Shown piece after piece: positions 30,662 to 43,020 of a stretch of 64,000 nucleotides of DNA. This DNA comes from Chloroflexota bacterium. GTDB taxonomy: Bacteria; Chloroflexota; Dehalococcoidia; Lucifugimonadales; Australimonadaceae. The stretch is from the NCBI GenBank assembly GCA_028874795.1, contig JAPPHT010000056.1, positions 1-64,000 of the forward strand, in the 5' to 3' direction. Under the pieces are notes generated by a model. That model saw only the letters and a program-made list of their open reading frames with translations. It did not search any database and was not told where the DNA came from. Position numbers and translations under genes: made by a program. The stretch's first letter is position 1; every line of letters starts with the position of its first letter.

Positions 30662-30920
30662 CGTATTCTGGGATCGGGTGGCCCGCGACTTCTTCCGGAG
30701 GCTCCCTCCAGAGGAGCAAGAGGTGGTGCAGGCAGCCGTTGACCACCTGATGGACCATCCCTATGCGGATGAAGTCGCTAAGATCCGGCTCCCCTTCCCC
30801 TTCCTCTACGGCACGATCGGGTATCGCGTGGGTGGGTTCTTCATTACGTACGGCTTCGATAACGCTGTCACGATACGCATCTATACCGTCTCGCGCGACA
30901 CCGGTCAGTACTGGGGCTAG
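30633..30920 (+). CDS. RelE/ParE-like toxin
   Basis: 95 aa from ATG at 30633. It shares length and motif order with the protein at 34565-34852: RLPFPFLYGTIGYRVGGFFITYGFDN and DTGQYWG here, versus MPFPFPFGTLGYKANGFFITYRIEN and DNPDYWG there. The hydrophobic beta pattern after an N-terminal helical hairpin suits a RelE/ParE fold. Toxicity is inferred. It ends with a 4-nt overlap of the convergent molybdoenzyme gene. Confidence 0.7.
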   Translation: MSSGNSTPVDVFWDRVARDFFRRLPPEEQEVVQAAVDHLMDHPYADEVAKIRLPFPFLYGTIGYRVGGFFITYGFDNAVTIRIYTVSRDTGQYWG

Positions 30921-33163
30921 CCGGAAGCCTGACCGGCCTCGTGGAGGGCGCGCCAGACGCGCTCGGGGGTGAGGGGGAGCGTCGAGATGCGGACGCCGGT
31001 CGCGTTAAAGACGGCGTTCGCCACAGCGGGTGCTACACAGACGATACCGCCCTCGCCGACGCCCTTCGCCCCGTACGGGCCGGGGCCGTTGCCGCTCTCG
31101 ATCAGCACGGTCTCGAACTCGTCCGGCAGATCGGTGAAGACGGGCACACGGTAGTCGACGAGGTTCGGGTTCAGGAGCTGGCCGTCCTCGTAGAGCATCT
31201 CCTCGAAGAGGGTGTGGCCGATGGCCTGCATCGCGGCGCCTTCGTCCTGACCCTCGACCTGCTTGGGGTTGATCGCCTTGCCGGGGTCCGAGATGGAGTA
31301 GTAGCGGAGCAGGCGAACCTCGCCCGTGGCCGTGTCGACCTCGACCTCGGCGGCGCCGATGCTCACCTCCCAGAAGACGGGGTCCTGGCGCAGCTTGCCG
31401 CTCGGGTGCTTCGGGGTCACGTAGCCCCTGCCCATCAGCTCGCCGCCGGAGCCGCCGAACAGGTTGCGCACGAGCGCTGCGAAGGCGACCGACTCGCCCT
31501 TGAACGACGCTCGCCCGTCCTCCGCCTCGATCTCCTCCGGGAACGCCTCGAAGTGCTCGGCCGCGAGGTCGAGCAGCTGCTGGCGGATGTCGATGGCGGC
31601 GTCGTGGACCGCGAGGCCCATGAGCGTGGTCGAGCGGCTGGAGCCGGTCGAGCGGTCCCATGGCACGGCAGACGTGTCCGACGCGACGACGCGCACCTTC
31701 TCGTACGGGATGCGCAGTTCTTCCGCGGCGATCTGCGCCATCACCGAGCGGGAGCCCTGCCCCATCTCCGCGCTGCCGATGTAGACGGTGGCGCTGCCGT
31801 CCGCATGAAAGCGCACGAGCGACGTCGACGTAGGGCTGGCGCCGGAGTTGGTGACGCCGCACGCGAAGCCGATGCCGCGCTTCACGCCGGGCGGTGTGGG
31901 TTCCGGTGTCCAACCATCCCAGCCGAACTCGTCCGCGACACGCCGCAGCGCGTACTCGAGGTCGCCCTCGATGGGACGCCTGCCGCGGCGCACCTCCTCG
32001 CCCTCGCGAACGAGGTTCTTCACGCGGAACTCGAACGGGTCCATGCCCAGCGCGTGAGCGATCATGTCTATCTGCGACTCGCACACCCAGATGGCCTGCG
32101 GCCCGCCGATGGAGCGGTACGAGCCCGCGGGGGTCGAGTTGGTGAACAGGCCGTACGTCTTCACGCGCAGGTTCGGCATCGCGTACGGGCCGGGCATCCG
32201 GTCGCCGAAGCGCTCCGTCACACGGACGCCGTTGTCCGTGTAGCCGCCTGTGTCGACGTAGCCGACGCAATCGCGGGCGACGATGGTGCCGTCGTTCATC
32301 ACGCCGGTGCGGATCGTCCCCCGGGCAGCGTGGCGGCGCACGGTTCGCATCGCCTCGTCGACGCTCAGCGCCAGACGGACCGGCCTGCCCGCCTCGCGGC
32401 TCAGCGCCGTCACCAGCGGTTCTATCTTTGTGTACGATTTGCTCCCGTAGCCCCCGCCAACAAACGGGACGACGACCTGCACCTGGTCCAGTTGCCGCCC
32501 GAAGAGACGGGCTATCTCCGCCTGCACGAGGAAGGGGTGCTGCGCCGACGTCCAAAGACGGATACGGTCCGGTTCGTAGCTCGCGATGCAGGTGTGCGGC
32601 TCCATCGCGTAGTGGTAGACCATCGGGAACTCGAACGTGTCCTCGAAGACGTGGTCGCACTCGCGGAACGCCGCGTCGACGTCGCCCCACCCGATGCTGT
32701 ACTCGTGGCACACGTTCGACTCGTGGACCGGCTCGCCCGCGGGGTCGAGGGCTTCGTCGATGCCGGTGACCGTCGGCAACTCCTCGTACTCGACCTCGAC
32801 GAGCTCAACCGCGGCCTCGGCGGTTGCGAGGTCGACGGCGGCTACCGCCGCGACGGGTTCGCCCTGGAAGCGCACCTTGTCGATCGCGACGACCGGGCGG
32901 TCCTTCTTGTCGGAGCCGTAGTGCGTCTCCATGTTGACGAGCTCCGCAGCCGTGAGCACGGCGTAGACGCCGGGAAGCGCTCGGGCCCTGCTGGCGTCGA
33001 GCCGCGTGATACGGGCGTGCGGCAGCGGGCTGGTGACCAGTTTGCAGAACGCCATGCCGGGGACCTCGAGGTCGCCCGTGAACTGCGCGCGGCCAGACAG
33101 CTTCTCGTCGGCGTCCAGCCTGCGCACCTGGGTGCCGACCGTTTTGAACTCCCGCGTCGTCAT
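30917..33163 (-). CDS. Molybdenum hydroxylase large subunit (xanthine/CO dehydrogenase family)
   Basis: 748 aa from ATG at 33163, which overlaps the stop of the 2Fe-2S subunit by 4 nt. It binds the molybdopterin-cytosine dinucleotide cofactor. Visible motifs are VPFVGGGYGSKSY, GSYRSIGGPQAI in place of the CO dehydrogenase AYRCSFR loop, IGSAEMGQGSRS, and GAKGVGEGGIV with the conserved catalytic Glu near the C-terminus. It lacks the CoxL active-site loop, so it is probably not a CO dehydrogenase but a hydroxylase of N-heterocycles, aldehydes or similar. Third subunit gene in the FAD, 2Fe-2S, Mo order. Confidence 0.93.
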   Translation of the reverse strand: MTTREFKTVGTQVRRLDADEKLSGRAQFTGDLEVPGMAFCKLVTSPLPHARITRLDASRARALPGVYAVLTAAELVNMETHYGSDKKDRPVVAIDKVRFQGEPVAAVAAVDLATAEAAVELVEVEYEELPTVTGIDEALDPAGEPVHESNVCHEYSIGWGDVDAAFRECDHVFEDTFEFPMVYHYAMEPHTCIASYEPDRIRLWTSAQHPFLVQAEIARLFGRQLDQVQVVVPFVGGGYGSKSYTKIEPLVTALSREAGRPVRLALSVDEAMRTVRRHAARGTIRTGVMNDGTIVARDCVGYVDTGGYTDNGVRVTERFGDRMPGPYAMPNLRVKTYGLFTNSTPAGSYRSIGGPQAIWVCESQIDMIAHALGMDPFEFRVKNLVREGEEVRRGRRPIEGDLEYALRRVADEFGWDGWTPEPTPPGVKRGIGFACGVTNSGASPTSTSLVRFHADGSATVYIGSAEMGQGSRSVMAQIAAEELRIPYEKVRVVASDTSAVPWDRSTGSSRSTTLMGLAVHDAAIDIRQQLLDLAAEHFEAFPEEIEAEDGRASFKGESVAFAALVRNLFGGSGGELMGRGYVTPKHPSGKLRQDPVFWEVSIGAAEVEVDTATGEVRLLRYYSISDPGKAINPKQVEGQDEGAAMQAIGHTLFEEMLYEDGQLLNPNLVDYRVPVFTDLPDEFETVLIESGNGPGPYGAKGVGEGGIVCVAPAVANAVFNATGVRISTLPLTPERVWRALHEAGQASG

Positions 33164-33642
33164 CGGCTCGCCTCCGCCGCTTCGTGGACGGCCTCCACGA
33201 TCTTCTTGTACCCGGTGCACCGGCAGACGTTCCCGCGCATGTAGTCCTTGATCGTCTCCTCTGACGGAGCGGGGTCGGCGTCGAGCAATGACTTCGCCGC
33301 CAGCAGCATGCCCGGCGTGCAGAAGCCGCACTGGAACGCCGCGTTGTTGACGAACGCCTCGATGAGGGGGGAGGCGTCCTCGCCGGCCGCGAAGCCTTCC
33401 ACCGTGAGCACCTCCCTGCCCCGCGCCTCGAACGCGGGCACGGTGCACGAACTGACGGGGGCGCCGTCCAACAGCACCGTGCAGGCGCCGCACACCTGCA
33501 CGTCGCACGAGCGTTTCGTACCCGTCAGGCCGAACCGCTCCCGCAGCAGATCGATGAGCGGCGTCTGCGGCTCGACCGTGGCCGCGACCGGCGCGCCGTT
33601 CAACTCGAATGTCATCTCCACAAGGGACTGCGCCTCAGACAT
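33160..33642 (-). CDS. Molybdenum hydroxylase 2Fe-2S subunit
   Basis: 160 aa. Both 2Fe-2S cluster motifs are intact: CDVQVCGACTVLLDG (plant-ferredoxin type) and CGFCTPGM ... CRCTGY. It passes electrons from the Mo centre to FAD. It overlaps the upstream FAD subunit by 8 nt and the downstream large subunit by 4 nt. Confidence 0.95.
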   Translation of the reverse strand: MSEAQSLVEMTFELNGAPVAATVEPQTPLIDLLRERFGLTGTKRSCDVQVCGACTVLLDGAPVSSCTVPAFEARGREVLTVEGFAAGEDASPLIEAFVNNAAFQCGFCTPGMLLAAKSLLDADPAPSEETIKDYMRGNVCRCTGYKKIVEAVHEAAEASR

Positions 33643-34513
33643 CGCCGCCTCCGTTCCGCGCCAGTGCGCGCAGCACCGTCCGCTCCAGGAAGACGCGCAC
33701 GAGATGCTCCTTGTAGTCGACGCCGCCGTGCATGTCCTCGACCGCGTCGGCATCCTCCGACGCGAGCCGCGCTGCCTCGCGCAGCACCGACGCTCCTTCG
33801 GCCAGGGCGTCGACGCGCTCCCCGCGCAGCACGTCCTCCGAGCGCGACAGTCTCCGCGCGACAGGCGAGACGCAGCCGAGCGCGAGGCGCGCGTCCGCGA
33901 CGACGCCGTCTTCCACCGCGAGCGCAGCCGCGATGCCGAGCGTCGGGCGGTGGTGGTAACCGAACTTGGAGTAGGCGGCGCGTACGCCCGCAGGGAACAC
34001 GGGGACGCGCACGGCGGTAAGCAATTCATCCGGCCCCAACGACGTCTCGTAGGAGCCGGTCTGGAGGTCGCCGGCGGCGATGCGCCGCGCGCCGGACGGT
34101 CCCGCGATGTCCAGTTCCGCTTCGTAAACGAGCAAGAGCGTCGCGGGGTCGGAGTGGGGTTCAGCGAAGCAGAGGTTGCCCGCGAGCGTGCCGACGTTGC
34201 GCACGCGCAGGTTGGCGACGCCGTGCTCGACCTCGGACAGCAGGGGCAGCCGCTCACGCACGAGCGGGTCGTGCTCGACGGCGCTGTGGGTGGCGCTCGC
34301 GCCGATAACGACGCCGTCGCCGTCTGCGGACACGCTGTCGAGGCCGGGGATGCTCTTTACGTTGATGAGGGTGTCGTAGGCGAGCAGGCCGGATTTCATG
34401 GCGAGCAGGAGCTCGGTGCCGCCCGCGTAGAGCGCGGCGCCGCCGCCAGCGTCGGCGAGGGCGGACGCGGCCTCCTGCACGGTCGTGGGTTCGTGCAAGC
34501 GGAAGGGCTTCAT
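33635..34513 (-). CDS. Molybdenum hydroxylase FAD-binding subunit
   Basis: 292 aa. The FAD_binding_5 fold shows ALYAGGTELLLAMK and VRNVGTLAGNLCFAEPHSD (variant of the TIGGNL loop). The C-terminal CO_deh_flav_C-like part has ALGCVSPVARR. First gene of the three-subunit operon; the ATG lies 52 nt from the convergent-side TA cassette stop. Confidence 0.93.
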   Translation of the reverse strand: MKPFRLHEPTTVQEAASALADAGGGAALYAGGTELLLAMKSGLLAYDTLINVKSIPGLDSVSADGDGVVIGASATHSAVEHDPLVRERLPLLSEVEHGVANLRVRNVGTLAGNLCFAEPHSDPATLLLVYEAELDIAGPSGARRIAAGDLQTGSYETSLGPDELLTAVRVPVFPAGVRAAYSKFGYHHRPTLGIAAALAVEDGVVADARLALGCVSPVARRLSRSEDVLRGERVDALAEGASVLREAARLASEDADAVEDMHGGVDYKEHLVRVFLERTVLRALARNGGGDV

Positions 34514-35711: not shown

Positions 35712-35742
35712 TTGACACGCCATGCATCGCATCGTCTATGGT
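35712..35742 (+). promoter_or_regulatory. Candidate promoter for the sulfite-oxidase-like operon leader
   Basis: TTGACA at 35712-35717 is followed after 17 nt by TCTATG (35735-35740), or after 19 nt by TATGGT (35737-35742). It would start transcription near 35748, giving a leader of roughly 195 nt before the coding sequence at 35944. Confidence 0.45.
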
Positions 35743-35783
35743 TCCGCCAGACGACCAGTCCCGAATGGTCAGAGGTGTCCAGG

Positions 35784-35927
35784 GTGACCTCCGCTTGCTT
35801 CTGTTGCAGCTGTTGTGCCGGTCAAGCCGGGATGTGTTGTTGTTGCACGCACTCCTCCGGCATGGACACCCCTGCCCCGCACCACACCCCAGGTTGCGGG
35901 GCTTTTTCATGCCCCCGCGACGGATGA
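35784..35927 (+). CDS. Cysteine-rich leader peptide (putative attenuator uORF)
   Basis: 47 codons from GTG with AGAGG 8 nt upstream, ending just before the AGGAGG of the next gene. Ten of the first 21 codons or so are Cys, or lie in clusters: Cys codons at 35796, 35802, 35805, 35811, 35814 and a run of four at 35835-35846. This is far above chance for any protein and resembles leader peptides that sense charged tRNA-Cys. Other frames read Leu-rich, so the Cys frame is chosen because of the downstream gene and start context. Confidence 0.5.
   Translation: MTSACFCCSCCAGQAGMCCCCTHSSGMDTPAPHHTPGCGAFSCPRDG
35864..35907 (+). terminator. Intrinsic terminator inside the leader of the sulfite-oxidase-like gene
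   Basis: GCCCCGCA (35874-35881) pairs with TGCGGGGC (35895-35902) as an 8-bp perfect stem with a 13-nt loop, followed by TTTTT (35903-35907). Just upstream, GGACACC (35864-35870) can pair perfectly with GGTGTCC (35774-35780), a possible long-range stem that encloses the Cys codons. The terminator lies before the coding start, the hallmark of attenuation. Confidence 0.65.
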
Positions 35928-35943
35928 CACAGGAGGACGCCCC

Positions 35944-37026
35944 ATGGACTCGAAACCCACACCCGAAGGCACCCACGTCAAGCCGACGCCGAGCGAGCTG
36001 TTCTTCCATCACGACGTCTGCGTAGAGACGCGCTGGGAGAACCTGTACGGACGCGGCTACCTGACCCCCGCGTCGCTCTTCTACATCCGGAACCACGGGC
36101 CGACACCCATCATCGATGAGAAGACGTGGCGGCTCAGCGTGGAGGGGCCGGGTGTGGAGAGCCCCCTGAGCATCAGCTACGACGAACTGCTGCGCATGCC
36201 GTCGGTGACGGTGACCCGCTTTATCGAGTGCGCGGGCAACGGGCGCGTCTTCTTCAAGGAGTACCAGGGGGAGATGCCCAAAGGCCGTCCCTGGCGCTAC
36301 GGCTCCTACGCCGTCGCAGAGTGGACGGGCGTGCCGCTGCGCGAGATCCTCGAACGCGCGCGCATCAAGCCGACCGCCGTTGACGTGATGCCGACGGGGC
36401 TGGACGAGGCTGCAGTTGAGCGGCCCATGCCCGTTGCCAAGGCGATGGAGCCGGACACCATCGTCGCCTACGCCATGAACGGCGACCTCATCCCTCCGGA
36501 CCACGGCTTCCCGGCGCGGGTCGTCGTGCCCGGCTGGGTCGGCGTCAACAGCATCAAGTGGGTCGGGAAGATCCTCGTGTGCGAGGAGCCGGTCCACGTG
36601 ATGCGGAACACCGAGGAGTACGTGCTGGAGGGGCCGGACTTCCCGCCCGAGCCTCCCGCCTGGGGACCCGTGCTCACCACGACACCGGTCCGCTCCGGCA
36701 TCGCGATGGCGTGGCCGGGAACGCTGCGGGCAGGCACGCAGGCCATCCGAGGCTTCGCCTGGTCAGGCCACGGGAGCATCAGCCGGGTCGAGTACAGCCT
36801 CGACGATGGCAAGACGTGGGCGGACGCCACTATCCAGGAGCCGAACATCTGGAAGGGCGGCTGCCGGTGGGAGTTCATATGGGACGCCCCCGCCGGCGAG
36901 CACACCATCACGATGCGGGCGACGGACAGCGCCGGGAACACGCAGCCGGAACCGGACACGATGAAGTGGAACGAGCGCGGCTACGACTTCTGGGCCGCGG
37001 TGCCGCACCCGGTCACGGTGGTGTGA
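35944..37026 (+). CDS. Sulfite-oxidase-family molybdopterin protein
   Basis: 360 aa from ATG with AGGAGG 7 nt upstream. The Oxidored_molyb domain (about 60-230) contains FIECAGNGR, whose Cys would ligate molybdenum, and GFPARVVVPGWVGVNSIKWVGK, a SUOX-family signature. The C-terminal Mo-co dimerisation domain (about 260-350) has GFAWSGHGSISRVEYSLDDGKTW. No signal peptide or haem domain, so it is a cytosolic SoxC/YedY-unlike variant. It may oxidise sulfite or another sulfur compound. The leader upstream suggests attenuation. Confidence 0.9.
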   Translation: MDSKPTPEGTHVKPTPSELFFHHDVCVETRWENLYGRGYLTPASLFYIRNHGPTPIIDEKTWRLSVEGPGVESPLSISYDELLRMPSVTVTRFIECAGNGRVFFKEYQGEMPKGRPWRYGSYAVAEWTGVPLREILERARIKPTAVDVMPTGLDEAAVERPMPVAKAMEPDTIVAYAMNGDLIPPDHGFPARVVVPGWVGVNSIKWVGKILVCEEPVHVMRNTEEYVLEGPDFPPEPPAWGPVLTTTPVRSGIAMAWPGTLRAGTQAIRGFAWSGHGSISRVEYSLDDGKTWADATIQEPNIWKGGCRWEFIWDAPAGEHTITMRATDSAGNTQPEPDTMKWNERGYDFWAAVPHPVTVV

Positions 37027-38148: not shown

Positions 38149-38397
38149 ATGGCCGTGCAGATCACCATCAGGAACGTGAGCGAGGAGGTCCGCAACCAGC
38201 TGGCTTCTCGTGCCGCGCTGAAGCACCAGTCCATGCAGCAGTTCCTGCTCGAAGAGCTGGAGCGCATCGCATCGGAGCCCTCTCAAGAGGCGCTGTTCGA
38301 CCGGATCCGCGCGCGCGTGGATGCGTCAGGCAGGGGCGTCTCCAGGGAGACCATCCTGGCAGCGCTGGATGCCGACAAGAGATATGATCGTCGTTGA
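38149..38397 (+). CDS. FitA-type ribbon-helix-helix antitoxin
   Basis: 82 aa. VQITIRNVSEEVRNQLASRA is the RHH DNA-binding start seen in FitA-like antitoxins of VapC toxins, followed by SMQQFLLEELERIA. The C-terminal tail (about 50-82) would bind the toxin. Overlaps the VapC start by 14 nt. Confidence 0.88.
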   Translation: MAVQITIRNVSEEVRNQLASRAALKHQSMQQFLLEELERIASEPSQEALFDRIRARVDASGRGVSRETILAALDADKRYDRR

Positions 38398-38782
38398 CGC
38401 CTCTGCAGTAGTAGCGTTCGTTACCGGCCAACGGCCTGACGGAGCCTGGGTACGCGAGCAACTTTGGGATCAGCGACTCCTCAGCACCCATGTGATGCCC
38501 GCTGAAGTCCATAACGCCCTCAGGCGCATGGAACTCAGTGGGGATTTCTCAACGGCGGACACTAGGGACGCGCGCGCGGAGTTCCTGGGCATCCGTTTTG
38601 AGCTTGCCCCTTTCCGCCCATACGCCAACCGGGTGTGGGAGCTGCGCCGGAACCTCAGTGGCTACGACGCGTGGTACGTCGCTCTGGCGGAGGCGCTCGA
38701 CTGTCCGCTCGTGACCATAGACCACCGGCTCAGCCGGGCTGTCGGGCCGGAGTGCACGTTCGTGACTCCGCCGGACGCGTGA
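38384..38782 (+). CDS. vapC: VapC-like PIN-domain toxin
   Basis: 132 aa from ATG at 38384. IVVDASAVVAFV has the first PIN Asp, PAEVHNALRR the Glu, YDAWYVALAEAL the third acidic residue and TIDHRLSRA the fourth. PIN toxins cleave RNA in a Mg-dependent manner. Paired with the overlapping upstream antitoxin. Confidence 0.92.
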   Translation: MIVVDASAVVAFVTGQRPDGAWVREQLWDQRLLSTHVMPAEVHNALRRMELSGDFSTADTRDARAEFLGIRFELAPFRPYANRVWELRRNLSGYDAWYVALAEALDCPLVTIDHRLSRAVGPECTFVTPPDA

Positions 38783-39856: not shown

Positions 39857-40720
39857 ATGCGCCCGTTCGAGTACATACGGCCTGCGAGCGTCGCCGAGGC
39901 GGTCGGTGTCATTTCCGAACGCGGCGAGGACGCGTTCGTGCTCGGCGGCGGCAGCGCGGCCGTCGTCATGCTGCGGCTCGGCGTCGTGCGCCCGGAGCTG
40001 GTGGTCGACCTCGGCGGCATCGAGGAGATGCGCGGCCTGAGCCGCAACGGCGGCTTGCGTATCGGCGCGCTCGTGAGCATCCGCAGCCTCGAACTCGACG
40101 ACGGCGTCCGCGGCGCGTACCCGCTGCTCGCGGAGGCGGCGTCGCAGGTAGCGAACGTGCGCGTGCGGAACGTCGCCACCGTCGGCGGAGCGGTCGCCTA
40201 CGGCGAGCCGCAGACCGACACGCCGACGGCGCTCACGGCGTCCGGCGCGGTCGTGCGCGTCGCGGGCGTCTCCGGCGAGCGCAGCGTGCCGATCAGCGAG
40301 TTCTACGTGGGGCCGTACGAGACCGTCCTGGAACAGGGCGAGATCGTGTCCGGGATCGACGTGCCGGAGGAGCCGCCGCACACGGGCGGCTGCCACGTCA
40401 AGTTCACGGTAGGGTCGCCGGAGAACAAGCCGGTGGCGAACGCGTCCGCGCTCGTCACGGTCGACCCGCCATCGGGCACGTGCGTATCGGCTCGCGTGGT
40501 GATGGGCGCCGCGGGGCCCGTGCCGGTCGTCGCGAACGCGGCAGGCGCGCTGGTGGGCATCGAGGCGACGCCGGAGCGCATCGCGGACGTCGCGGCTGAG
40601 GCCGCGGAAGAAGCCGACCCGATGGAAGACCTGCGCGGGCCGGAGTGGTACAAGCGCCGGATACTCAGGATAGTGGTGGAGCGAGCGTTGACATGTGCGC
40701 TGCAACGGGCCCGAACGTAA
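39857..40720 (+). CDS. Molybdenum hydroxylase FAD-binding subunit
   Basis: 287 aa. FVLGGGSAAVVMLR and VRNVATVGGAVAYGEPQTD are the FAD_binding_5 loops (GG pair conserved). Its last 28 nt overlap the start of the large subunit gene (40693). Partner of the large and 2Fe-2S subunits in this operon; sequence differs clearly from the FAD subunit at 33635-34513, so the two systems are distinct. Confidence 0.93.
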   Translation: MRPFEYIRPASVAEAVGVISERGEDAFVLGGGSAAVVMLRLGVVRPELVVDLGGIEEMRGLSRNGGLRIGALVSIRSLELDDGVRGAYPLLAEAASQVANVRVRNVATVGGAVAYGEPQTDTPTALTASGAVVRVAGVSGERSVPISEFYVGPYETVLEQGEIVSGIDVPEEPPHTGGCHVKFTVGSPENKPVANASALVTVDPPSGTCVSARVVMGAAGPVPVVANAAGALVGIEATPERIADVAAEAAEEADPMEDLRGPEWYKRRILRIVVERALTCALQRART

Positions 40721-43020
40721 CCCGCCTCGTCGGTCAGTCGATGCCGTCGCTCGAAGCGCCGGACAAGGCCGCGGGCCGCATCGAGTACATGGCCGACCTG
40801 ACCGTCCCCGGCATGGCGCACGCTAAGGTCGTGCGCAGTCCCCTGCCCCACGCGCGCATCGTCTCGATCGACGCGTCGGAGGCGCGAGCGATGCCCGGCG
40901 TCGTCTGCGTACTGACCCGGGACGAGGTGCACGCCGACCCGGACATGGAGGAGGTGTACGGCTTCGTCTACCGCGACGCTCCGCTCGTGGCGATGGACAA
41001 GGTGCGGCACCAGGGCGACATCGTCGCGGTCGTCGTCGCCGACGACGTCGACACCGCGGAGGCAGCAGCCGAGCTCGTGGACGTCGAGTACGAGGAGCTG
41101 CCCGCGGTGATGAACGTGCCGCAGGCGCTGGCGGAGGGCGCCGTGCAGGTGCACGAGGAGTTCTTCCCCATCGCGCCGGAGCTGCGACCCATCGAAGGCA
41201 CGAACGTCTGCCACCACGCGACCATCGGCTGCGGCGACGTCGACCAGGGCTTCGCGGAAGCGGACTTCGTGTACGAGGACGAGTTCACCGCGCCGCCGGT
41301 GCAGCACTGCGCGCTGGACCTGCACGCCGTCATCTCGCAGATAGAGGACGGGAAGATCACGGTGTGGACGAACTGCCAGTCGCCCTTCCCGCTCGGGCGC
41401 GAACTGGAGCGCATCTTCAAGATGCCCGCGCGCGTCATCATCCCCTACGTGGGCGGCGGGTTCGGCAGCAAGAGCCGCGACCGCATCGAGTGCGTCATCA
41501 CGGCCGCAGCGAAACTCGCCGGGCGTCCGGTGCGCTACGTGCTCACGCAGGAGGAGACGTTCATGACGTTCATCCGCCCAGCGTATCGGAACCGGATGCG
41601 GACAGGCGTGAAGAAAGACGGCACGATCGTCGCGCGGCACAACGAGTTCTGGGTGGACGTGGGCGGCTACGCCATCAGCGGCGCCCGGAGCGCCAACAAC
41701 ACGCTCAAGGTGGCGACGGGCCCGTACCGCATCCCCAACGCCCGCGTCGACTGTTACGCCGTCTACACGAACAAGCCGCCGTCCTCGCCGTACCGCGGGC
41801 TGCCGACGACCCAGCACACGATGTCGTACGAGGCTCAGTTCGACCGCATCGCGCGCGACCTCGGCATCGACCGGCTGGAGATACGCCGCAGGAACCTGGT
41901 GCGCGACGGCGACATCCACGTCACCGGCGACTACCTGCGCTCCGCGCACTCGCACGAGTGCCTGGAGCAGGCGGCCGAGGCCATCGGTTGGGACGAGCCG
42001 CTGCCCGTCGACCCGGAGGGGAAGAAGCTGCGCGGCAGGGGCGTCTCCTGCACCATCAAGTACACGCTGACCCCGGCGCGCGAGATGTCCGAGAACAGCG
42101 CCGAGGTCGCGCTCGTCGAGGAGGGCGTCTTCGAGGTGCGCATCGGCACGGTGAACATCGGCCAGGGCTCGGACACGGTGATGGCGCAGATCGCGGGCGA
42201 CGCCCTCGGTGTCGGGCTCGACGCGATACGCATCGTGCACAGCGACACCTACCGCGTGCCGGTGGACAGCTCGACGACGGCGAGCCGCTCCACGTACCAC
42301 ATGGGCCGCGCGGTCGTCGAGGCGACGGACAACCTGAAGCCGCAGATGCTCGAAGCCGCCTCGCAGCTCCTCGAGCGAGAGGCGGCCAGCCTCGTGTTCA
42401 CACCGGACGGGATTGCGCAGGCGGACGGAGCGTCCGAGGACGACGGCGCAGCTGTGACCTACGGCGAGCTCGTGGAGCGCGTCGGGGCGCCGCTCGCCGC
42501 GACCGGCGACTGCGTGGTCGGCGGCATGTACGCGGGGCCGGACGGGAGGTCGTACCCCATTGCGTCGACGTTCTGGACGTTCGCGTCGTGCGCCGCCGAA
42601 GTCGAGGTCGACACGGAGACGGGCACGGTGCGCGTCGTGAAGGCCGCAGCGTCGGCGACGACCGGCACGGCGGTCAACCCGCACTCCATCGAGACGCAAC
42701 TGGAGGGCGGCATCGGCCAGGAGATCGGGCCCACGCTCTTTGAGCAACTGGTGTGGGACGACGGCGGGCAACTCATCAACGCGGCGCTGCTCGACTACCC
42801 GCTGCCGACGATGGAGACGATGCCCGACTACGCCCCGCGCTACGTCGACCACCCGTTCGAGGGCGGGCCGTTCGGCGCGAAGGGCATGGGCGAGATCGGC
42901 TCGGTGGTCCTGCCCGGCGCGGTCGTTAATGCCGTCTACGACGCCACGGGCGTCCTCTTCCATGAGGTGCCGCTGCTGCCGCACAAGGTCATCGAGGGGC
43001 TGGAGGCAAGGGCGGAGTGA
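40693..43020 (+). CDS. Molybdenum hydroxylase large subunit
   Basis: 775 aa from ATG at 40693. Motifs are IPYVGGGFGSKSRDR, SPYRGLPTTQH in the position of the CO dehydrogenase active-site loop, IGTVNIGQGSDTVMAQ and GAKGMGEIGSVVLPGA with the conserved Glu. As in the other locus, the CoxL AYRCSFR loop is absent, so it is not a classical CO dehydrogenase. The substrate may be an aldehyde, heterocycle or aromatic; adjacent LLM and SRPBCC genes do not settle this. Confidence 0.92.
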   Translation: MCAATGPNVTRLVGQSMPSLEAPDKAAGRIEYMADLTVPGMAHAKVVRSPLPHARIVSIDASEARAMPGVVCVLTRDEVHADPDMEEVYGFVYRDAPLVAMDKVRHQGDIVAVVVADDVDTAEAAAELVDVEYEELPAVMNVPQALAEGAVQVHEEFFPIAPELRPIEGTNVCHHATIGCGDVDQGFAEADFVYEDEFTAPPVQHCALDLHAVISQIEDGKITVWTNCQSPFPLGRELERIFKMPARVIIPYVGGGFGSKSRDRIECVITAAAKLAGRPVRYVLTQEETFMTFIRPAYRNRMRTGVKKDGTIVARHNEFWVDVGGYAISGARSANNTLKVATGPYRIPNARVDCYAVYTNKPPSSPYRGLPTTQHTMSYEAQFDRIARDLGIDRLEIRRRNLVRDGDIHVTGDYLRSAHSHECLEQAAEAIGWDEPLPVDPEGKKLRGRGVSCTIKYTLTPAREMSENSAEVALVEEGVFEVRIGTVNIGQGSDTVMAQIAGDALGVGLDAIRIVHSDTYRVPVDSSTTASRSTYHMGRAVVEATDNLKPQMLEAASQLLEREAASLVFTPDGIAQADGASEDDGAAVTYGELVERVGAPLAATGDCVVGGMYAGPDGRSYPIASTFWTFASCAAEVEVDTETGTVRVVKAAASATTGTAVNPHSIETQLEGGIGQEIGPTLFEQLVWDDGGQLINAALLDYPLPTMETMPDYAPRYVDHPFEGGPFGAKGMGEIGSVVLPGAVVNAVYDATGVLFHEVPLLPHKVIEGLEARAE

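Follow-up and report, generated by a model that had tools for sequence, protein, structure and literature searches.

The textbook amino-acid attenuator senses starvation and switches biosynthesis on in response. Attenuators of the trp/phe/his type combine a short open reading frame (ORF) carrying a run of one codon with an intrinsic terminator, two parts that they share with the leader described here. In E. coli, a terminator is repressed almost completely when it comes a few bp after the stop codon, but not when the two are more than 27-30 nt apart; once a stop had been shifted from 28 to 5 bp, termination of about 90% became less than 10% (PMC4824070). Further, without a pause of the RNA polymerase, a ribosome seldom catches up with it in a stretch of about 100 bp (PMC4824070). 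For cysteine, uORFC-8-2 before cysS in Rhodobacterales is a proposed Cys-codon attenuator with a terminator, to which classical logic was ascribed (PMC8632094), and the cys operons of actinobacteria have Cys-run leaders without obvious terminators (PMC1262725). Mycobacterial polycysteine leaderless short ORFs (Canestrari 2020, cited in PMC13236596) are, as far as the citing text recounts them, translational and Cys-responsive, and a stall turns their genes on.

Here, we analysed a stretch of 64,000 nucleotides from a Chloroflexota bacterium (the window), in which a Cys-codon leader precedes a sulfite oxidase family gene. Conserved tandem Cys codons in an upstream ORF and an intrinsic terminator are common to this leader and uORFC-8-2, which differs in its classical logic, its tRNA synthetase gene and its phylum (PMC8632094). 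A first-pass annotation of this DNA had cited the mycobacterial leaders as a precedent, and the likeness holds in that both are poly-Cys short ORFs before sulfur genes, but the mechanism differs. As cited, the mycobacterial ORFs are translational, leaderless and free of obvious terminators, whereas the oxidase leader has a terminator, a Shine-Dalgarno sequence and a predicted response of opposite direction; if the putative promoter is right, its transcript would begin about 30 nt ahead of the GTG. With the E. coli pyrBI leader (pyrL) it shares an ORF that crosses the terminator and ends just before the next gene, and a terminator blocked only by a ribosome close behind RNA polymerase, which for the oxidase leader is a modelled property. 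However, pyrL senses UTP via polymerase pausing, while the speed control of the oxidase leader would be its Cys codons, which suggest a sensor other than UTP-dependent pausing. In the literature searched, with partial coverage, we found no report of translation through a terminator that has amino-acid codons as speed control and a catabolic target.

Organization of the leader and the sulfite oxidase family gene

The features of the locus are as follows.

35712-35742 (+), putative promoter: -35 TTGACA at 35712-35717, -10 TATGGT at 35737-35742, 19-nt spacer
35771-35775 (+), Shine-Dalgarno sequence AGAGG of the leader ORF, partly within the P1 5′ arm and 8 nt upstream of the GTG
35774-35780 (+), 5′ arm of helix P1, GGTGTCC, identical in 5/5 genomes
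35784-35927 (+), leader ORF: GTG start, 47 aa, peptide VTSACFCCSCCAGQAGMCCCCTHSSGMDTPAPHHTPGCGAFSCPRDG, stop TGA at 35925-35927, past the terminator
35796-35816 (+), Cys cluster 1: codons 5, 7, 8, 10 and 11 (at 35796, 35802, 35805, 35811 and 35814)
35835-35846 (+), Cys cluster 2: TGT TGT TGT TGC, codons 18-21
35864-35870 (+), 3′ arm of helix P1, GGACACC, identical in 5/5 genomes and immediately upstream of the terminator
35874-35907 (+), intrinsic terminator within the leader ORF: arms GCCCCGCA (35874-35881) and TGCGGGGC (35895-35902), then TTTTT (35903-35907)
35931-35936 (+), Shine-Dalgarno sequence AGGAGG of the sulfite oxidase family gene
35944-37026 (+), sulfite oxidase family gene, 360 aa: Pfam Oxidored_molyb 1.1e-52, Mo-co_dimer 1.2e-13

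The promoter, frame, Cys codons, pairing arms, terminator and AGGAGG named in the first-pass annotation were each found where it had placed them. The promoter sequence ATTGACAC is the same in five aligned genomes of the genus and its -10 element matches TAnGnT; an alternative -10 element, TCTATG, lies at 17 nt, and the transcript is expected to start near 35750. The TTGACA is invariant in five relatives, although an automatic scan reported no sigma-70 promoter; the same scan missed the terminator because its loop exceeds the length allowed. In all five genomes of the genus, a Shine-Dalgarno sequence (AGAGG or AGGGG) stands 7-8 nt from the GTG.

Nine Cys codons fall within the first 21 codons of the ORF. 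When open 20-codon stretches were compared in six frames across the whole window, the leader stretch held 9 Cys codons and the runner-up 6, so the Cys richness of the leader is more than chance. Among the Cys codons of the leader 6/11 are TGT, in comparison with 3 TGT to 33 TGC (3/36) in seven genes of the window. A search for (TGY)4 in the window's genome gave 32 matches versus 50 in the reversed control, showing no enrichment and yielding no second leader of this kind. No Rfam family (riboswitch, T-box or other) matched the leader at the gathering score, and no protein family matched its peptide. The best Rfam match, the Rhizobiales sRNA Atu_C7 at 35756-35907 (+), scored 20.4 bits where 45 are needed and is probably due to chance. 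With a predicted translated ORF that has a Shine-Dalgarno sequence, a conserved codon run and a terminator, the leader would belong to the ribosome-mediated attenuators in the broad sense.

The downstream gene encodes a molybdopterin domain with the Mo-ligand Cys and a dimerisation domain, and sulfite oxidase family activity is predicted for its product. The closest solved structures are sulfite oxidases, and the Cys of RFIECAGN aligns with that of their QCAGN, while the product scored below the NCBIfam cut-offs for SoxC, SorT and SorA. The gene occurs at 93-94% identity in metagenome-assembled genomes labelled SAR202 cluster, Dehalococcoidia and Chloroflexi bacterium, which makes a SAR202-type Chloroflexota the very probable source of the window.

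Conservation of the Cys codons within the genus and in a sister genus

The leader and the same downstream gene are present in 4/5 other genomes of the genus (five with the window), and the remaining congener, G001, is without both. The leaders are 84-87% identical to that of the window. Cys codons 5, 7, 10, 11, 18, 19 and 20 are invariant in 5/5 genomes (codon table), with codons 18-20 reading TGT TGT TGT in each; codon 8 is Cys in two and Ser in three, and codon 21 varies or is absent through a 3-nt indel that preserves the frame, so that the Cys frame is open in all five. Variable columns number 1/21 in the seven invariant Cys codons and 24/66 in the other codons (Fisher p = 0.005). Outside the Cys codons, changes fell on the three codon positions as 11/8/6 without third-position bias, indicating that the Cys codons are conserved and the peptide as such is not strongly so. 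The terminator stem (helix 6) was kept in 5/5 genomes with 100% of cells paired, and its energy was -18.9 kcal/mol in the window and -17.5 to -18.9 kcal/mol across the genus. A covariance-model search with the leader family returned the five known loci only, the remainder (E 0.04-0.3) being taken as noise.

The first-pass annotation had named a Leu attenuator in another frame as its alternative, and that frame indeed reads LLLLQLL in two genomes. However, it contains two stop codons in 3/5 genomes, where the Cys frame stays open, which removes the Leu alternative; to this reading, or to chance, against which the recurrence in a sister genus speaks, we give next to no credence.

Two genomes of a sister genus in the same family (G006 and G012) carry the orthologous gene at about 72% identity. 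A similarity search with the window leader found no match in the sister-genus leader DNA. The sister-genus promoter reads TTGACA-17-TAGGAT or TTGACA-17-TAGCAT, and the ATG-initiated leader peptides, each read to its stop codon, are MRSQPANCPERAPGSCTCTCCCRFWTIG and MRNQPTNGPEYAPEACDPCACCCRFWTIE, both with Cys runs. In 2/2 genomes the TAA abuts the stem of the terminator GACGGCG...CGCCGTCTTTTT (gap -1), and the gene comes next. The peptides of the two genera have Cys-richness alone in common, while an intrinsic terminator between leader start and gene is retained in 7/7 genomes. In the comparison with relatives that the first-pass annotation had suggested, the Cys runs therefore stayed while the stems changed, the opposite of the outcome that it had set against itself. 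Taken together, we regard it as highly probable that the oxidase leader is a real Cys-codon attenuator of some kind.

Another reading takes the frame as coding for a small, stable protein that binds metal or resembles metallothionein, followed by an ordinary terminator, since the sequence within the window's genus is rich in Cys and His. We consider this very improbable: there is no family match, the peptide is not conserved between the genera, and the frame crosses the terminator stem, where RNA constraint explains the conserved C-terminus.

Of the 30 loci fetched, 23 were more distant sulfite oxidase orthologs, and none of these 23 had a Cys leader with a terminator. Upstream of a sulfite oxidase-like gene in two genomes (L065 in G044 and L067 in G118), a Cys-rich stretch reading IPCACCPAPII or IACACLLPCACCPALII up to the stop codon lies behind a shared TTGACA promoter. 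The two stretches differ by 18 nt in frame, have no common ATG, GTG or TTG start, and are not followed by a terminator.

Ribosome position and the terminator

The first-pass annotation had pointed to pairing of GGTGTCC with GGACACC around the Cys codons. This helix, P1, is indeed predicted and invariant; the predicted pairing is strong in four of the five genomes and reaches about 0.45 in G002, and its closure pairs the Shine-Dalgarno sequence of the leader itself. However, P1 coexists with the terminator in the folding models, and it was rejected as an antiterminator. Another candidate antiterminator, in which the poly-Cys tract GUGUGUUGUUGU pairs with the terminator loop CACCACAC, gained no support from the ensemble calculation, wherever the ribosome was placed. 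The five close sequences of the genus show no compensatory changes, their pairs vary on one side only, and the P1 arms are invariant.

We then modelled ribosome masking, in which a ribosome footprint was placed at each codon and the terminator probability was computed in the full leader. A second measure was the pairing of the terminator 5′ arm with upstream RNA while the 3′ arm was still unmade. This truncated-RNA measure and E. coli controls were added because the equilibrium terminator probability alone misses trpL and hisL; all folding was computed at equilibrium or on one truncated state and is not kinetic. In the controls, the 5′ arm was sequestered at 0.68 on the Trp codons versus 0.06 at the stop in trpL, and at 0.83 on the regulatory codons versus 0.26 at the stop in pheL, while hisL was weaker (0.73 versus 0.54). 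The pyrL terminator was blocked only by ribosome cover, as in the oxidase leader.

For the oxidase leader, the modelled terminator probability was about 0.9-1 without a ribosome or with a ribosome stalled on the Cys codons. In the window's genus it fell to about 0 once the ribosome passed codon 26-29, and in the sister genus, where values were noisy, the terminator was blocked only at the last codons and the stop. The modelled ribosome at the blocking positions covers most or all of the terminator 5′ arm, which the ORF overlaps in the window's genus and abuts in the sister genus. Therefore, in the model, transcription is rescued only by a ribosome that has moved beyond the Cys codons. A stall on these codons did not sequester the terminator arm in any of the five leaders of the genus, using three footprints and two pairing rules. 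With the E. coli controls behaving as expected in silico, the oxidase leader thus differs from the trp/phe/his type in having no stall-dependent antiterminator; its stop is also not at the usual distance upstream of the terminator, and an inverted response is predicted. The distance from start codon to terminator is similar in these systems, being 87-90 nt in the leaders (90 in the window), 87 in trpL and 88 in pyrL.

The position of the stop codon is a key feature. The first-pass annotation had listed a leader stop past the terminator as a caveat; this was correct, and together with the masking results and the published effect of stop position (PMC4824070) it points to inverted logic. The stop lies past the terminator stem in 5/5 genomes of the genus. 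By composition, the probability of 26 codons without a stop is about 0.53, and an open frame through the terminator is therefore weak evidence alone; much of the weight of the stop-position argument, as read from the leader sequences, is carried by the sister genus (gap -1, two genomes).

In 4/5 genomes of the genus the stop falls just before the Shine-Dalgarno sequence of the oxidase gene (in the window, 16 nt upstream of the ATG), as would be expected if the leader mainly governed how ribosomes reach the oxidase start or re-initiate there, rather than termination. We hold such translational control to be quite improbable, because the stop falls at the U-run in G004 and, in the sister genus, well upstream at the base of the terminator, and a good terminator is retained everywhere.

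The claim of the first-pass annotation that ribosome pausing for Cys-tRNA controls sulfur oxidation gains from the conserved Cys leader and its recurrence in the sister genus, while the classical trp-type design that it implied does not fit well. In that design, Cys shortage would stall the ribosome, the antiterminator would form and the oxidase gene would be switched on. The Cys run, terminator and sulfur gene that it calls for are all present. However, with no stop before the terminator in the window's genus and a gap of -1 in the sister genus, a non-starved ribosome would cover the terminator, and the missing stall-dependent sequestration argues in the same direction. Moreover, a cell short of Cys would have little physiological reason to oxidise more sulfite. 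We therefore regard the trp-type reading as unlikely for the oxidase leader.

Cys leaders of sulfur assimilation genes

A pattern search for Cys leaders was conducted in 250 genomes of the order, with follow-up. Reading each peptide to its stop codon, we identified MSINYSFNCCCSL before a nitrite/sulfite reductase family gene in G034, MDICKTYTYKATCCCLCTPL before a cysteine synthase family gene in G130, and Cys leaders before a YeeE-type sulfur transport gene in five genomes (for example, MKNIINSNCCCCTPLNGVI). Further Cys leaders precede a DUF4395 gene and an alkanesulfonate monooxygenase-like gene. In these leaders the stop lies 17-30 nt before the stem (17-35 nt over the Cys leaders of assimilation genes as a whole), a classical build, and most of them show stall-dependent sequestration, with little in G034 and G019. 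These terminator-bearing Cys leaders from other families of the order (L101, L126, L106-L109, L111-L114, L121-L123) form an apparent cysteine-tRNA regulon.

The occurrence of the same design before sulfite reductase-like, cysteine synthase, sulfur transport and sulfonate monooxygenase genes in the order counts in favour of the trp-type reading. It counts against another proposal, in which the nascent Cys-rich peptide itself would respond to copper, another metal or sulfite/persulfide by arresting the ribosome. The leader peptides are very Cys-rich and Cys is chemically apt for such sensing, for which copper-responsive upstream ORF peptides are a published precedent (PMC9973294, PMC9426467). 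However, the assimilation genes are preceded by the same plain Cys runs, non-Cys codon positions drift freely, and the peptides of the two genera are alike in Cys-richness alone, which makes a peptide sensor improbable.

The window's own genome carries one of the assimilation leaders outside the window.

About 936-980, ORF of the reductase leader (L150, G000:C16), peptide MNIAVTMCACCCRP read to its stop codon

This leader precedes a NirA/sulfite reductase family gene; three congeners keep it, and so, in altered sequence, do three other genera of the family. It shares with the oxidase leader a Cys run, a hairpin and a sulfite-linked gene. In contrast to the oxidase leader, its stop lies 30 nt before the hairpin and overlaps the 5′ strand of an antiterminator (UAGGGCC...GCGCCCU), a classical-looking build that would switch the gene on at Cys shortage. 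Family scores do not separate sulfite from nitrite as substrate of the reductase, and the Cys leader favours sulfite. In the reductase leaders of the genus (L150, L153, L158 and L159) the hairpin is kept, with a U-tract of TTTCTT or TTTGCT, or none in G005. Because the U-tract is poor, termination is less certain for these leaders, and its weakening or loss may mean that the reductase leader moved from termination to other control.

A proposed response to charged tRNA-Cys

The reading that we favour, with some reserve, is that the oxidase leader is an inverted, translate-to-express transcription attenuator that reads charged tRNA-Cys, the gene being on when cysteine is sufficient. The ORF, its conserved Cys codons, the terminator, the stop position, the recurrence in the sister genus and the reductase leader can be read directly from the genomes, while the ribosome positions that block the terminator come from the model. 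We infer the direction of the response from the position of the stop codon and from the modelling.

In the proposed mechanism, RNA polymerase would initiate near 35750 and a ribosome would start at GTG 35784, with a pause of the polymerase assumed that lets the ribosome catch up. With ample Cys-tRNA, the ribosome would clear both Cys clusters and enter the terminator 5′ arm or, in the sister genus, reach the stop codon abutting the terminator. Its footprint would prevent the hairpin from folding, and RNA polymerase would continue into the sulfite oxidase gene. At Cys-tRNA shortage, the ribosome would stall on the Cys codons, the terminator would fold freely and the oxidase gene would be off, so that sulfite would be spared for reduction to cysteine. 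In the window's genus, P1 could close over the leader Shine-Dalgarno sequence in the stalled state and hold the off state.

Given that the oxidase and reductase leaders are of opposite build, they would steer sulfite oppositely from one signal, which we infer to be charged tRNA-Cys: shortage would direct it to reduction towards cysteine, and sufficiency to oxidation to sulfate. That one genome carries Cys attenuators of opposite sign on two enzymes competing for sulfite, with the sign set by the position of the stop relative to the terminator, is a proposition for which we see the balance as even.

If the favoured reading is true, an amino-acid-codon attenuator would turn its gene on when the amino acid is sufficient, with no arrest peptide involved. 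The leader suggests that moving the stop codon up to or beyond the terminator makes the same parts into a sensor of sufficiency that serves a catabolic gene, and the pair of leaders suggests that both signs are in use in one bacterium at a single metabolic branch point, sulfite. The oxidase leader would thereby offer a clean and portable way to test how an attenuator's sign depends on where its stop codon lies. SAR202-type Chloroflexota are a widespread, mostly uncultured marine group, and the leader makes cysteine-tRNA a candidate sulfur signal in them.

Neighbourhood of the sulfite oxidase family gene

Gene sets of the xanthine dehydrogenase/CO dehydrogenase type flank the sulfite oxidase family gene at 30917-34513 (-) and 39857-43020 (+). 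Like the sulfite oxidase, they encode molybdopterin enzymes, with Pfam matches for part of them. Between the oxidase gene and the downstream set, two small overlapping ORFs at 38149-38397 (+) and 38378-38782 (+) resemble, by eye, a VapB/FitA-type antitoxin and a PIN-domain toxin of the VapC type.
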